Source: a virus
Strand: one strand, 5' to 3'
Virus record (IMG/VR): IMGVR_UViG_3300031999_000127
Span: 1-32,414 of that record
DNA length: 32,414 bases
In this document: positions 511 through 14,579 of the stretch, piece by piece
Layout of the letters: each line of letters starts with the position of its first letter
Position numbering within the stretch: the stretch's first letter is position 1
Position numbers and translations under genes: made by a program
Notes under the pieces: model-generated
The model's input: only the letters and a program-made list of their open reading frames with translations
The model's database searches: none
Told to the model about the DNA's origin: nothing

Positions 511-1644
511 AGCGGCTTCTTGGGGCACGCTCGCCGTAACCGGCCACGTTACGCCCCACGCGCTCCGTCCGAGCGCGAGCAGATTCAGGGCGGCGTTTTC
601 ATCGCGGTCCATCGAGAGACCGCAATCGCAACGCACCCAACGATCTGCCAACGTTAGGTTTTCAAAGACCGCCCCGCAGGCCGAGCAAGTCTTGGAGGTG
701 TAGGCTGGAGGTACCGCCACAACCGTCTTCCCGGCCCATGCTGCCTTGAAAGACAGGTGCTTCCGGAAGTAGCCCCAGCCCGCGTCCAGGATGCTCTTTG
801 CCAAGTGCGGGTTCCGTACCATGTTCGGGATTTGCAGGTCCTCGACTGCAATCCGGTCGTAGCGCGAGATAAGGCCGTAGACCAACTTCTTCAGGAAGTC
901 CGTCCTGCGGTTCGCCACATGCTCATGCTGCCGGGCAACGGCTTGGACCGCCTTGCGACGGTTGGCTCCTCCCAACTTCCGGCGCGCATCCCGGCGTTGC
1001 AAGATGCGCAAACGGGCTTGCTCTGACCGATACCACTTGGGGTTTTCGATGTGTTCGCCGTCGCTCGTGGTGAACAGACTGGTGATGCCCACATCTATCC
1101 CGACCTCGGCCCCGGTCGAGGGCAGAAACTCGGGTTGGGCGTCGCAACTGAAAGAAACGTACCAAGCTCCCGCTTGCCTACGGATGCGGAGGGTCTTGAC
1201 CTCGCCCCCGACTGGCCGGTGCCAGCGTACTGCAATCCGCCCGATGCCCGTGACCTTCAGCCGCCTTCCGTCCAGGCGGAATCCGTTGCCATACTCTTTC
1301 AACCCGAACGAGTCGAAACGGTCGCGCCCGCGGAAGCGAGGATAGCCGGGTTTCTCCCCCGAGTTGATACGACGGAAGAACGCTTGGAAGGCTTTATCCA
1401 GATCGCAGGTTGTGACCTGGAGGATGTGCGAGTGCAATCGCGCCGCCCAGGGATTGTCCCGGCGATGGTCTTTGACCTTCCGCAACTGCGCGTACTTGCC
1501 GACACTCTCTTGTCGGTCGTTCCACGCGGTCTTGCGCTCCTCCAGGCACGCGTTGTACCAGCGGCGGCACGTCTCAAGCGTCGCTTCCAGCTTGCGCTTT
1601 TGGCACTTCGTTGGATAGAGTCGGTAGCGGTAGGTCGCTAGCAT
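502..1644 (-). CDS. tnpB: TnpB RNA-guided nuclease
   Basis: A 380-aa TnpB, the compact ancestor-like relative of Cas12, which in known members cleaves DNA next to a transposon-specific motif using a guide RNA from the right end of the element. All catalytic parts appear intact: RuvC-I Asp184 in GIDVG, RuvC-II Glu268 in IAVEDL, a zinc finger with Cys320/Cys323 and Cys339/Cys341, and the RuvC-III DRDENAALN motif near 346-350. The N-terminal half has the usual RWYNACLEER and PRFRGRDRF motifs. I chose the ATG at 1644 over the in-frame TTG one codon upstream. The last codons and stop overlap the right-end hairpin. No frameshift is seen, so it is likely active. Confidence 0.93.
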   Translation of the reverse strand: MLATYRYRLYPTKCQKRKLEATLETCRRWYNACLEERKTAWNDRQESVGKYAQLRKVKDHRRDNPWAARLHSHILQVTTCDLDKAFQAFFRRINSGEKPGYPRFRGRDRFDSFGLKEYGNGFRLDGRRLKVTGIGRIAVRWHRPVGGEVKTLRIRRQAGAWYVSFSCDAQPEFLPSTGAEVGIDVGITSLFTTSDGEHIENPKWYRSEQARLRILQRRDARRKLGGANRRKAVQAVARQHEHVANRRTDFLKKLVYGLISRYDRIAVEDLQIPNMVRNPHLAKSILDAGWGYFRKHLSFKAAWAGKTVVAVPPAYTSKTCSACGAVFENLTLADRWVRCDCGLSMDRDENAALNLLALGRSAWGVTWPVTASVPQEAAGL

Positions 1645-1659
1645 CAAGGGCCCTTCTAT

Positions 1660-1710
1660 AGGCTAAAGCCTTCCGAGAAGTCCCGCCTTGTCCCCTCCGG
1701 CTAAAGCCGG
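1660..1710 (-). repeat. Left-end hairpins of the TnpB element
   Basis: Two short palindromes with the shared core GGCTAAAGCC: 1660-1669, and CCGGCTAAAGCCGG at 1697-1710 with a 6-bp stem. They lie between the left boundary (1726-1731) and the tnpB start, as expected for IS200/IS605 left ends. Confidence 0.65.
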
Positions 1711-1901
1711 GGGGCTTGCGGCGGGCTTCAATCGGTCAGCCCACGCCTGACAATACTTGGCGAGCGTATCGTGGTCAGCCTCGCTCAAGAGCCCAGCCTC
1801 ATGCAGCTGCCGACTCACACGCTTCCACTCGTGCCGAGCCTCACCTGATAGATTGGATGGACAAGCCAGCAAGCTCTTAGTCATCCATTGCTCCCCAAAC
1901 G

Positions 1902-1935
1902 AAAACGCCCGGCTCCTCGAATGAGAAGCCGGGCG
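1902..1935 (-). terminator. Rho-independent terminator upstream of the terminase gene
   Basis: A 9-bp GC-rich stem, CGCCCGGCT (1906-1914) pairing with AGCCGGGCG (1927-1935), 12-nt loop. On the minus strand it is followed by TTTTCGTTT. It would stop transcripts arriving from the right just before the terminase small-subunit start at 1884, or attenuate expression of the packaging genes. Confidence 0.6.
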
Positions 1936-1999
1936 CTCATCTCCGGCAAAGCCCCCGTCTCCCGTACATGCGGGGGTGCGCAGGTCAGGTTGTCAAGCT

Positions 2000-2027
2000 A
2001 TGCTACCATGAAAGTATCAGTTGTAAA
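2000..2027 (-). promoter_or_regulatory. Possible promoter for the terminase operon
   Basis: On the minus strand, TTTACA (2027-2022) and TAGCAT (2005-2000) are separated by 16 nt, directly downstream of a GGCNN array. The match is moderate, and the terminator at 1902-1935 lies between it and the gene. Confidence 0.3.
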
Positions 2028-2095
2028 GCCACGCCCTGCCTCGCCTTGCCTTGCCCGGCCATGCCTCGCCCCGCCGAGCCCAGCCACGCCCTGCC
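2026..2095. repeat. NNGCC pentamer array 1 (14 units)
   Basis: Fourteen consecutive pentamers with fixed GCC and two variable bases on the plus strand (GGCNN on the transcribed minus strand), 70 bp with no phase break. The variable dinucleotides differ from unit to unit, so this is a period-5 pattern rather than a simple tandem repeat. It begins 6 bp after the stop of the ParB-like gene and lies upstream of the terminase. Confidence 0.9.
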
Positions 2096-2100
2096 ACGGG

Positions 2101-2820
2101 TCAATTCGTCCTCAGAAAGATGCCAATGGCCAACCGAAGCTGTTTCAGGCCATCCATGATCTTCGTGTCCGTGTCGTCGATCAATTCACCGTCGAGCAAC
2201 AGCAGGAGTTGATGGACGTGGAACAGGGGTTCCATGCCAGATAGATGCTCATTGATTTCAGCCTGCTTCTGGTTCAGCAACCGGCCGGCCATGTGGTCGA
2301 TTGACCGCTTCAGGGGGATCAACCCGCGACGGCCCTCCTGGAGCATGGCAACCGGTTCGTCTTCCCCTGAGTTCGCACGGACGGTCAGCCGCCCGACCCG
2401 ACCCTGGCGTAGATCGCCGACCTTTTCGACGGTCAGGCATAGGGCGGCCGCGATCTGGTCTTCAGGAATCTTCAACTCCTCGGCACGCAGGATGCAGCGC
2501 GTCCGGTCGAAGGTCGTCAGCTGCGAGCCGTGTTTCGCGTTCGACCGGACGGCGTCCAGGAATAGGGCGCGCTCGCTGGGATACGTCTTCACTTCACAAT
2601 CAATCTCAATTCCGTCATCACCCGAGAACCTGCGCCAAGCATGCCAACGGTGAACGCCATCCACAATGCGGAACGACTTTGCGTCCACCAGGAGTGGGGG
2701 AAGTTTTGCCCCCGCTTCCAGGGAGCGGACCATATAGCCGATGTTCTGCTCGTCTACATCCCCCCGCGGATAGAGAGTGCCATCGAACACGAGTTTCTGG
2801 GCTTTCACCTTTTGGACCAT
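2101..2820 (-). CDS. ParB/Srx-fold DNA-binding protein
   Basis: A 239-aa protein with a ParB/sulfiredoxin-like N-terminal domain: DGTLYPRGDVDEQNI, PPLLVDAKSFRIVDGVHRWHAW (the GxHR nucleotide-binding loop), then an HTH-like region around IPEDQIAAALCLTVEKV. The classical ENxxR motif is absent (SNAKHGSQLTTFDR stands in its place), so CTP use is uncertain. I chose the ATG at 2820, with SD GGAGGAA 5 nt upstream, rather than the ATG at 2832. GGCNN arrays flank the gene on both sides. Probably a phage regulatory or partition-like DNA-binding protein; its exact role is unknown. Confidence 0.75.
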   Translation of the reverse strand: MVQKVKAQKLVFDGTLYPRGDVDEQNIGYMVRSLEAGAKLPPLLVDAKSFRIVDGVHRWHAWRRFSGDDGIEIDCEVKTYPSERALFLDAVRSNAKHGSQLTTFDRTRCILRAEELKIPEDQIAAALCLTVEKVGDLRQGRVGRLTVRANSGEDEPVAMLQEGRRGLIPLKRSIDHMAGRLLNQKQAEINEHLSGMEPLFHVHQLLLLLDGELIDDTDTKIMDGLKQLRLAIGIFLRTN

Positions 2821-2845
2821 CGTTTCCTCCATTCTTGCTTCATCC

Positions 2846-2915
2846 TTGCCTCGCCTCGCCAGGCCATGCCTAGCCTAGCCCCGCCCCGCCGCGCCAAGCC
2901 CCGCCGCGCCCCGCC
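2846..2915. repeat. NNGCC pentamer array 2 (14 units)
   Basis: Again exactly 14 pentamers and 70 bp in unbroken phase, filling most of the 101-bp gap between the unrecognised gene ending at 2922 and the ParB-like gene starting at 2820. The variable positions are more C/G-rich towards 2915. It would lie in the untranslated leader of the ParB-like gene. Confidence 0.92.
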
Positions 2916-2921
2916 AGTTTG

Positions 2922-3494
2922 CTACTTAATCAATTCGGCGGTGAACTGCCCATACATGCCTTTCCTTTCGGGGCGGTAGTCTCCAATGCCGACCATCTTG
3001 CCTCCGAGGTTCATCACCGTCAATACGTGCTCGGCGGTGATGTAGGTCTCATCGATCTCCAGCGCAATACGGATCGCCCAATCCCGAAACAGTGGCCGCG
3101 CCCGCAGAATGCCCTGGCGTACCACAACCGCCCGCTGGACATTCACCTCGTAGGTCTTGATCGGTTTGCTGGTCTTCGCGTCTTCGATCAAACACAGTTC
3201 CTCGACAGGGAAAACATTGGCCGAGATCGTATCCGCCGCCGAGTACTTGCCAATCTTCATGCGGCTCTTTGAGGCCGCAGTGATGAGGCAACGTCGAATG
3301 CCGATGGCCGGAAAACTATAGCGTCCATCGGCATTGAGATAAAGACCCGCGGCGGCTTCGTCTTTCGGCATCGGAATTTGCTTCGTCTTCATGTCCTTGC
3401 CCGAGCCGCCCGTCATGCCGCTTGGGTTGTGTGTGAGCAAGGGCCGATTGCCAATAAGTCGAAAAAGGTACGTGTTTTTACTATCGGTTGCCAT
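2922..3494 (-). CDS. Conserved phage protein of unknown function
   Basis: 190 aa. The layout (FRLIGNRPLLTHNPSGM near the N-terminus, a central FPAIGIRRCLITAA, RPLFRDWAIRIALEID, and a C-terminal GGKMVGIGDYRPE followed by GQF) is one I recognise from other phages but cannot name. The beta-rich pattern with a glycine loop near the end suggests a nucleic-acid-binding or annealing-type fold; that is inference only. ATG at 3494 with AGGAG 8 nt upstream. Pentamer arrays lie in its leader (3548-3608) and just after it (2846-2915), which ties it to the ParB-like gene as a unit. Confidence 0.75.
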   Translation of the reverse strand: MATDSKNTYLFRLIGNRPLLTHNPSGMTGGSGKDMKTKQIPMPKDEAAAGLYLNADGRYSFPAIGIRRCLITAASKSRMKIGKYSAADTISANVFPVEELCLIEDAKTSKPIKTYEVNVQRAVVVRQGILRARPLFRDWAIRIALEIDETYITAEHVLTVMNLGGKMVGIGDYRPERKGMYGQFTAELIK

Positions 3495-3547
3495 CGTATG
3501 CTCCTGTCTTCCTAAGATGTTTTCGCTAGTCGATCTGGATAGGAAAA

Positions 3548-3608
3548 GAGCCTACCCTGCCTCGCCCTGCCTGGCCCAGCCCCGCCTCGCCAGGCCTGGC
3601 CACAAGCC
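3548..3608. repeat. NNGCC pentamer array 3 (imperfect, about 12 units)
   Basis: Nine perfect units at 3557-3601, one more at 3548-3552 separated by a 4-base unit (TACC), and an out-of-phase AAGCC at 3604-3608. This is a slightly decayed version of arrays 1 and 2. It lies in the leader of the gene starting at 3494. Confidence 0.82.
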
Positions 3609-3787
3609 GAGGGGCCGGGGATAGATTGACATTCTGCAATCGCTCATGCTGGTGCCCCTGCCCGAACAGGGGCGGCAAAGTCCTCAAGCTGTCGGCCCAG
3701 ATTCGTTCCTTTCGTTTTGGATTTCCCCGGCCCCTCACTTCGATAACTCCTGCATCCGCAGATCTTGTTTGTGACGATCCACCTCCA
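3609..3787. other. Intergenic stretch with one hairpin
   Basis: Between array 3 and the coiled-coil gene. It contains a 7-bp stem, GCCCCTG/CAGGGGC, at 3654-3673. Neither strand has a T-run after it, so I do not call a terminator. No supported reading frame. Confidence 0.4.
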
Positions 3788-4084
3788 TCAGAGCGCTTCC
3801 AGTGCAGCGACCCGCACTCCAAGCGCCGCAAGATCGGCCTGCAATTGCAGGATCGCCGTTCTCGCCAGAACGATCTTCCCGTCGATATCGGCCAACCTGT
3901 CGTCAATGACACCGAGCCTCGCCTTAGCTACAATGATCCTGTCATCCATCTCGTCGGCAAATGCCCGGACATCGGCCAGGACAAGCGACAACTGCTGCGC
4001 CGTCTCCTTCAGCGACACAATGAAACGATGGGCCGACTGGACGGCCAATCGATGATCTGTCGGATCGCCAAACGATGGAAACAT
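3788..4084 (-). CDS. Small coiled-coil protein
   Basis: 98 aa, starting MFPSFGDPTDHRLAVQSAHR. The rest is almost entirely heptad-like helix (LKETAQQLSLVLADV, then ILQLQADLAALGVRVAALEAL), so a multimerising coiled coil is likely. The start at 4084 is fixed by a strong SD GAGGAGGT 6 nt upstream; a longer in-frame extension has no SD. It is the last gene of the 4-13 kb minus-strand operon. No known function recognised. Confidence 0.65.
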   Translation of the reverse strand: MFPSFGDPTDHRLAVQSAHRFIVSLKETAQQLSLVLADVRAFADEMDDRIIVAKARLGVIDDRLADIDGKIVLARTAILQLQADLAALGVRVAALEAL

Positions 4085-4097
4085 AGCTGCTACCTCC

Positions 4098-4169
4098 TCA
4101 ACTGCCGGACGGCAGGATGAAAATTCTCGTGCGCCATCGGCCCGCAAGTCTGCCCATGCGGATGTTCAT
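4098..4169 (-). CDS. Possible 23-aa peptide
   Basis: A very short basic frame (MNIRMGRLAGRWRTRIFILP then SGS). Its ATG overlaps the stop of the upstream gene as ATGA and its stop lies just before the SD of the downstream gene. The overlap pattern repeated along this operon is the only support; it may simply be a coupling spacer. Confidence 0.35.
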   Translation of the reverse strand: MNIRMGRLAGRWRTRIFILPSGS

Positions 4170-4495
4170 GCTTGCGCCGCCAGCAGCGCGCTCAACCTCA
4201 GGTCTGCCCGTCTGCCCTTGTAGCAAGCCCTCAACTGCTCACAGAGGTGATCCATGTGCGGCCGCCCGAAGCAATGTACCTTCTCCTGCAACAGAAGTGC
4301 CCTGATGCGCTTCCCATCAGCGTCCCTGGTGATGTTGTGCGCAGGGCAGCAGTCAGCCTTGAACTCCTCTGGGTGTGCGTCTACGAAAGCCAGAGCTCTC
4401 GGGTTGGCCAGGAAGGATTTGTTGAGGATGTGATGGGAATGCTTCCCCGAACTGCAAGGCCGAATGGAGAACGGTGCCACTTCGCAGCGATTCAT
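4166..4495 (-). CDS. HNH-like or zinc-binding phage protein
   Basis: 109 aa. The motif CSSGKHSHHILNKSFL followed by DCCPAHN resembles the Cys/HHI/CPxH pattern of compact HNH-type or recombination nucleases, but the full catalytic set cannot be confirmed by eye. The C-terminus is basic. Its start overlaps the upstream stop as ATGA (4495-4492), so it belongs to the same translation chain. It is the second HNH-like gene of the window and does not closely resemble the one at 39-395. Confidence 0.6.
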   Translation of the reverse strand: MNRCEVAPFSIRPCSSGKHSHHILNKSFLANPRALAFVDAHPEEFKADCCPAHNITRDADGKRIRALLLQEKVHCFGRPHMDHLCEQLRACYKGRRADLRLSALLAAQA

Positions 4496-13676: not shown

Positions 13677-14579
13677 GTGCAAGACGCAATCAGCCGGTTC
13701 TTATCCAGCCAGCGAAGGCGCTGCTCGCCTTCGACGCTTCAGCAATACGCCTGGTACCTCAATGATCTGCTGGCGTGGCTGCGGGCCGCGGCCCCCGCGG
13801 GCTCGACGGCGCCCAGCCCCCAGGGGATCACGGCAGCAACGCTCGACGCCTGGCTGGCCTCTCGACAGCACTGGGCTCCCTCCACGCAGTACCTGGCCAT
13901 CGTCGCCTGCCGCATGTTTTTCCGTTGGGCGCTGGGCGTTCGGGAGTGCATGGCCGATGATCTGGCCTTGCCGCGGCGCACCACGAAGCCGCAGCGGGCG
14001 CTGACCGAGCTGCGCCTTCAGCAGCTGCTCGCTTCCCTCGACACCTCCCGCCCGAAGGGCATTCGGGATCTGTCACTCATCACCCTCCTGGTGGATACCG
14101 GACTGCGAGCGGCCGAGGTCGCCTCGCTGCGCATCGACCATGTCAACGTCAACGAGCGCACTTTCACCGTCAGGATCAAGGGAGGGACATGGGCCGATGG
14201 CGTCTTCGGCACCTACACCGGCGCCTGCCTGGTCGACTGGTTGGGCATTCGCGGAGATTACGTCCGGCCGACGGTGCAGCAGGTGTACATCGGACTGGGG
14301 GGCTTGACGCCGGGCTGCGGCATGACGGTATGCGGTCTGCGTTCGATGTTCCGCGAGCTCGGCCGCAAAGTCGGTTTTCCCATCAGCACGCACGACTTCC
14401 GGCGCACCTTTGCCACCCTTTCCCTCAAGGGCGGCGCGCCCACCCGCCTGGTGCAGATCGCGGGACGTTGGAAGGATCTGGCGATGGTGGAGCGGTACTC
14501 GCAGAGTCTGACGCCGGCAGATTTTGAGCGCTACAGCCCGGTGAATGCCATCATGGGGATCCGCCCGCCGGTGGATTAG
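13677..14579 (+). CDS. int: Tyrosine recombinase (phage integrase)
   Basis: 300 aa from a GTG at 13677, with AAAGGAGG 5 nt upstream. An N-terminal SAM-like core-binding domain (about 1-100: SPSTLQQYAWYLNDLLAWL) precedes the catalytic domain. Residues seen: Arg144 (TGLRAAEV), Lys168 (RIKGG), His239/Arg242 (HDFRRTFAT), Trp265 in the usual His/Trp position (GRWKD), and the nucleophile Tyr274 (VERYSQS). It integrates or excises the phage at the attachment site directly downstream. It is a plus-strand gene between two minus-strand blocks, so it has its own control. Confidence 0.95.
   Translation: MQDAISRFLSSQRRRCSPSTLQQYAWYLNDLLAWLRAAAPAGSTAPSPQGITAATLDAWLASRQHWAPSTQYLAIVACRMFFRWALGVRECMADDLALPRRTTKPQRALTELRLQQLLASLDTSRPKGIRDLSLITLLVDTGLRAAEVASLRIDHVNVNERTFTVRIKGGTWADGVFGTYTGACLVDWLGIRGDYVRPTVQQVYIGLGGLTPGCGMTVCGLRSMFRELGRKVGFPISTHDFRRTFATLSLKGGAPTRLVQIAGRWKDLAMVERYSQSLTPADFERYSPVNAIMGIRPPVD

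Follow-up and report, generated by a model that had tools for sequence, protein, structure and literature searches.

Period-5 GGY arrays of an uncultured tailed phage are very probably guide tracts of a VIPR system

Three arrays of five-nucleotide units in a stretch of viral DNA are, with high probability, the guide (repeat) parts of vrRNAs; the VIPR system to which they would belong is that of a tailed phage with an integrase gene. The stretch, referred to as the window, comprises 32,414 nucleotides (positions 1 to 32,414 of IMG/VR record IMGVR_UViG_3300031999_000127). VIPR is a CRISPR-like, phage-carried weapon that was described very recently (bioRxiv 2026.04.26.720920, PMC13142463). According to the preprint it consists of a phage-encoded RAMP protein, Vipr, and of vrRNAs with 9-16 YNNGG repeats, and DNA is recognised by NN pairs with one base skipped between them, the 1-nt-skip code (PMC13142463). 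The kind of system is already known and the window locus is a new member of it. The assignment is based on the arrays themselves, the homology and fold of Vipr, the association and common strand of both in relatives, and hypervariable guides beside a conserved protein. Formation of an RNP, the 1-nt skip and repression are inferred from experiments with SUSP1 and would apply here by analogy (PMC13142463).

Read along the minus strand, the locus consists of array 3, vipr (2922-3494), array 2, the ParB-like gene (2101-2820), array 1 and a terminator-like hairpin:

3554-3603, minus: array 3 (vrRNA repeat tract 3), 10 NNGGY units in the leader of the vipr gene; NN order 5'->3' GT CA CT GA GG TG CA AG GA AG
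3495-3553, minus: leader from array 3 to vipr with a predicted hairpin (-13.5 kcal/mol, z -1.9) and the ribosome-binding site AGGAG
2922-3494, minus: vipr, 190-aa Vipr protein, phrog_4652, Cas7-like RAMP fold, C-terminal Gly-rich loop GIGDYRPERKGMYG
2848-2917, minus: array 2 (vrRNA repeat tract 2), 14 units, begins 4 nt past the vipr stop codon; NN order 5'->3' CT GG GC GG TT GC GG GG TA TA AT CT GA GA
2101-2820, minus: ParB-like gene, 239 aa, start at 2820 behind GGAGG; candidate Vipr-accessory protein (vap)
2028-2097, minus: array 1 (vrRNA repeat tract 1), 14 units, begins 3 nt past the stop codon of the ParB-like gene; NN order 5'->3' GT AG GT TG TC GG GA AT CG AA AA GA AG GT
1900-1937, minus: strong, GC-rich hairpin of 16 predicted pairs, then TTTTCGTTT; terminator-like operon end

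A preliminary description of this DNA had placed three arrays in three successive gaps around the genes 2922-3494 and 2101-2820 and had counted 14 units without phase break in arrays 1 and 2. Both points were confirmed from the sequence, and array 3 is free of phase breaks as well. The GGC that was then called invariant is read on the minus strand and holds for 14, 14 and 9 units; array 3 extends from 9 GGC units (3559-3603) to 10 (3554-3603) once GGY is allowed, its last unit AGGGT being a GGT, and the invariant element is GGY. Because arrays 2 and 1 begin 4 nt and 3 nt after stop codons, the arrays fill the intergenic gaps. Their existence is confirmed and chance is far from explaining them: when the window was shuffled 200 times with dinucleotides preserved, no NNGGY run exceeded 5 units, a length reached once, and there was no further run of at least 4 units elsewhere in the 32,414 nt. 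Each array contains 7-9 different NN among its 10-14 units; a microsatellite formed by slippage, with units alike and few variants, was rejected on this ground and on the different behaviour of low-diversity arrays. With 14, 14 and 10 units of constant GGY and hypervariable NN the window agrees with the 9-16 YNNGG repeats of VIPR, and as in VIPR the intergenic arrays flank vipr on its own strand.

The protein encoded by 2922-3494 has the further hallmarks of VIPR, i.e. it is a small (~20 kDa) RAMP homologue with an RRM core and a Gly-rich loop. It is 25% identical to the SUSP1 protein (KT454805.2 28474-29061; BLASTP E 6e-16). When the window Vipr alone was searched against the PDB, the sole match was 36pp, 'SUSP1 Vipr protein' (E=6e-10), and 36pp matched the 58-member Vipr profile with E=1.6e-42. 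All 58 aligned Vipr relatives matched phrog_4652, and G165, G169, R174 and G182 are conserved. The AlphaFold model of the window Vipr had a mean pLDDT of 94. The best 50 PDB structure matches listed for it were gRAMP and Cas7-like subunits from CRISPR complexes of types III and VII; Foldseek gave E down to 1.3e-6 with a TM-score of only ~0.5 for Cas7-like subunits. A protein search of IMG/VR found no close relative of the window Vipr.

The association of arrays and Vipr was followed in public sequences with a pattern of ten GCCNN units, which yielded at least 120 loci in IMG/VR and at least 120 in bacterial and archaeal genomes. Most viral arrays listed had degenerate NN, and most cellular arrays listed were simple low-diversity repeats. 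Clustering of the predicted proteins of the listed loci returned one family in 62 loci that includes the window protein 2922-3494. Array and Vipr occur as a pair in at least 88 loci, and Vipr family genes shared the strand of the GGY array in 206 of 206 gene-array pairs of the listed loci. Because Vipr was detected with a profile built partly from the same viral loci, the positive rate of 88/115 listed loci with diverse arrays (at least 7 different NN; 83/108 viral and 5/7 cellular) is not independent, while the zero rates, 0/107 listed loci with low-diversity arrays (at most 4 different NN) and 0/30 loci fetched for another reason, are independent.

Vipr genes from a protein search of other genomes often, not always, had GGY arrays within ~1.5 kb. 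Two Vipr loci without GGY arrays (L292 and L303, ~1275-1340) carry a period-5 array of the consensus nnGAC instead. Vipr relatives of Planctomycetota (L305-L309) are without a GGY array of at least 6 units within ~1.5 kb, some showing degenerate period-5 traces. A Solibacteraceae MAG (L214 5222-5286) has a diverse 13-unit GCCNN array in a genome without a Vipr match.

The preliminary description had taken a length of 14 units to be fixed. This proved to be coincidence, as array 3 has 10 units and the arrays nearest Vipr in 62 Vipr loci range from 6 to 30 units and do not cluster at 14. Furthermore, two relatives with 98% identical Vipr, L110 and L114, carry arrays of 9, 10, 9 and 8 units and of 10, 10, 10, 9, 9 and 14 units, respectively; their NN are unrelated and their 3' tail is identical. 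Varying length and unrelated NN beside a near-identical Vipr are what replaceable guides would show, and speak against a ruler. The arrays of both relatives are staggered (L110 2114-2291, L114 1621-1950; minus-strand string positions), with one base too few at the junction of successive guides (GGC A GGC) and an invariant tail after the last staggered array.

By analogy with SUSP1, minus-strand transcription of the window locus would produce RNAs that each comprise a run of NNGGY units. Copies of Vipr would polymerise along such an RNA, each gripping the GGY of one unit and leaving its two free bases exposed. The resulting complex would then bind double-stranded DNA with matching NN pairs, one base being skipped between them, and the bound gene would be silenced, probably in rival phages or prophages. 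Of the earlier proposal of a 5-bp rhythm selected for a protein filament, the part retained as the best reading is a protein that binds and oligomerises along the repeat; a free-standing DNA rhythm is abandoned, the bound molecule expected being RNA. Both flanked genes had been implicated, and one of them, Vipr 2922-3494, encodes the expected binding protein. The two positions regarded as 'free' would carry information by specifying the DNA target under the published 1-nt-skip code (PMC13142463).

For SUSP1, DNA binding guided by vrRNAs was demonstrated, and the skipped base was reported at the wobble position (PMC13142463). Should targets be coding and the skip fall on their wobble base, NN frequencies would be expected to resemble codon positions 1-2 on either strand. 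This was assayed with 3,753 units from 114 loci, with genes predicted simply as the longest ORFs. NN fit codon positions 1-2 better than positions 2-3 in 82/114 loci, than positions 3-1 in 106/114, than the all-phase average in 93/114 and than a GC-matched model in 95/114, and the bootstrap intervals of the log-likelihood differences excluded zero. The window alone, with 38 units, does not separate positions 1-2 from 2-3. Across the 114 loci NN composition is consistent with wobble skipping and would lend independent support, without known targets, to NN as codon positions 1-2 of coding targets.

Under the 1-nt-skip code the guides decode to these candidate targets:

array 1: ACnCTnTCnTTnTTnCGnATnTCnCCnGAnCAnACnCTnAC
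array 2: TCnTCnAGnATnTAnTAnCCnCCnGCnAAnCCnGCnCCnAG
array 3: CTnTCnCTnTGnCAnCCnTCnAGnTGnAC

In the search for a natural target of the three guides, exact 10-12-unit cores had no match in IMG/VR, and 8-unit cores occurred at 5, 8 and 17 places. The places found with arrays 1 and 2 agreed at 16-21 of 28 positions in all, i.e. at chance level outside the core. Some 8-unit-core places read as coding motifs, GGYYILED (methyltransferase-like), LDGWHRDS (tail-fibre-like) and ISPDQTLT, and are suggestive only as targets. The array 1 target gave nothing in 297 Desulfobacterota genomes with 3 mismatches allowed. Obtained ahead of any host assignment, these negative results are all weak evidence. No skip rule gave an excess when 246 arrays were decoded locally against 2 Mb of loci; the 3-nt skip rule picked up only the arrays themselves.

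A structured invariant 3' tail after the repeats is described for the SUSP1 clade (PMC13142463). A common sequence is not evident among the 3' tails of the three window arrays, and one of these tails folds into a hairpin. The predicted hairpin in 3495-3553 is weak evidence for a vrRNA tail. Folding of 1890-2027, the region with the hairpin 1900-1937, gave a z of -3.2; the hairpin was not listed by a consensus scan. A search of 1600-4300 for known RNA families and hammerhead ribozymes returned nothing above the gathering score. Because the arrays lie directly in gene leaders, their release as separate small RNAs is not assured.

The ParB-like protein 2101-2820 matched phrog_1033 (4e-12), and its profile matched solved ParB proteins (7e-5). 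Its family is present in 7 listed array loci, always on the strand of the array, and its position suggests that it is probably an accessory protein (vap). VIPR systems are described with such accessory genes, vap1-6, acting at DNA. Three more ParB-like genes are found in the same phage (6881-7936, 7926-9953 and 11441-12271, minus). We consider it possible, if rather unlikely, that the guide tracts double as the 5' leaders of both genes, vipr and the ParB-like one, without any common tail, one RNA being both guide and regulatory leader. Vipr loading would then set its own expression, and the ParB-like protein may start at the guided site, spread along the DNA and silence more of it. Leader arrays, lack of a common tail and a ParB-like partner may together constitute an architecture beyond the main text of the preprint (PMC13142463).

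An alternative use of the leaders would be autoregulation, with Vipr binding GGY in its own mRNA leaders at a TRAP-like 5-nt pitch and controlling translation while NN is neutral. Both vipr and the ParB-like gene do have an array in their leader, in one case with 27 nt left to the start codon, and the searches found no target. Yet in relatives 4-12 staggered arrays stand in a row outside any leader, NN composition tracks codon positions 1-2, and guided DNA binding has already been demonstrated for SUSP1 vrRNAs (PMC13142463). Thus we consider neutral NN very improbable. Similarly, the location of the ParB-like gene between arrays 2 and 1 and the habit of ParB proteins to bind DNA clusters might suggest centromere- or iteron-like DNA sites for 2101-2820 with a 5-bp half-turn rhythm. 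We give this little credence, because the ParB-like family is present in only 7 examined array loci vs 62 with Vipr, and because NN that vary from unit to unit and between near-identical phages are unusual for a fixed binding site.

Slippage, acting neutrally on a GGC-rich pentamer, would account for unit numbers that differ among relatives, and bacterial genomes do contain genuine pentamer arrays of low diversity. On the other hand, GGY is kept while NN takes many values, the strand is fixed, and Vipr accompanies the diverse arrays and none of the low-diversity ones among the listed loci. The same three observations uphold the earlier preference for selection over slippage, which itself we regard as practically negligible. 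Of the random unit numbers and neighbours that the preliminary description expected from neutral slippage, related genomes show varying unit numbers, but their neighbouring genes are not random.

The phage is uncultured, tailed and integrase-encoding; because of the tyrosine recombinase/integrase gene at 13677-14579 (plus strand) it is probably temperate. Directly downstream of the VIPR locus lies a gene for a TnpB-family RNA-guided endonuclease (502-1647, minus; NCBIfam guided_TnpB, 1.8e-87), whose product is 57.5% identical to a Geobacter anodireducens plasmid protein. Vipr and TnpB searches for the host in Desulfobacterota, Fibrobacterota and Planctomycetota gave distant relatives only, or nothing at threshold.

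With these arrays a puzzling repeat is identified, very probably, as the guide RNA of a phage weapon that is programmable, CRISPR-related and of a new class, and guides of uncultured phages would become readable as lists of candidate attacked genes. Cas7-family RAMPs such as Csm3 and type VII Cas7 share with Vipr the fold and the lining up of protein along a guide RNA. They read a continuous spacer, whereas a VIPR guide is read as NN pairs. In contrast to these systems, neither cas genes nor a CRISPR array were recognised among the scanned genes of the window: a tandem-repeat scan found no CRISPR-like repeat family, and Cas proteins were absent from the scanned genes except for the TnpB/Cas12f-like 502-1647, called TnpB by NCBIfam.

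Escherichia phage SUSP1 (ALH47069.1, KT454805.2, PDB 36pp, PMC13142463) has a homologous Vipr. Both systems are phage-borne, with GGY/NN arrays on either side of vipr and on its strand, and with a small accessory gene. The window differs in that its accessory protein is ParB-like and not similar to that of SUSP1, its arrays are mostly GGC instead of GGT and sit in gene leaders, a shared 3' tail is not evident, and the phage encodes an integrase. A VIPR locus on a Fibrobacterota MAG contig (CAISVC010000518.1, L147) has common tail TTTATTTTCTTTAACAA after two arrays, in contrast to the window with no evident shared tail, and arrays of 12/15/7 units compared to 10/14/14. Yet it has the same order array-vipr-array-ParB-like-array, with 38% identity for Vipr and 48% for the ParB-like protein.
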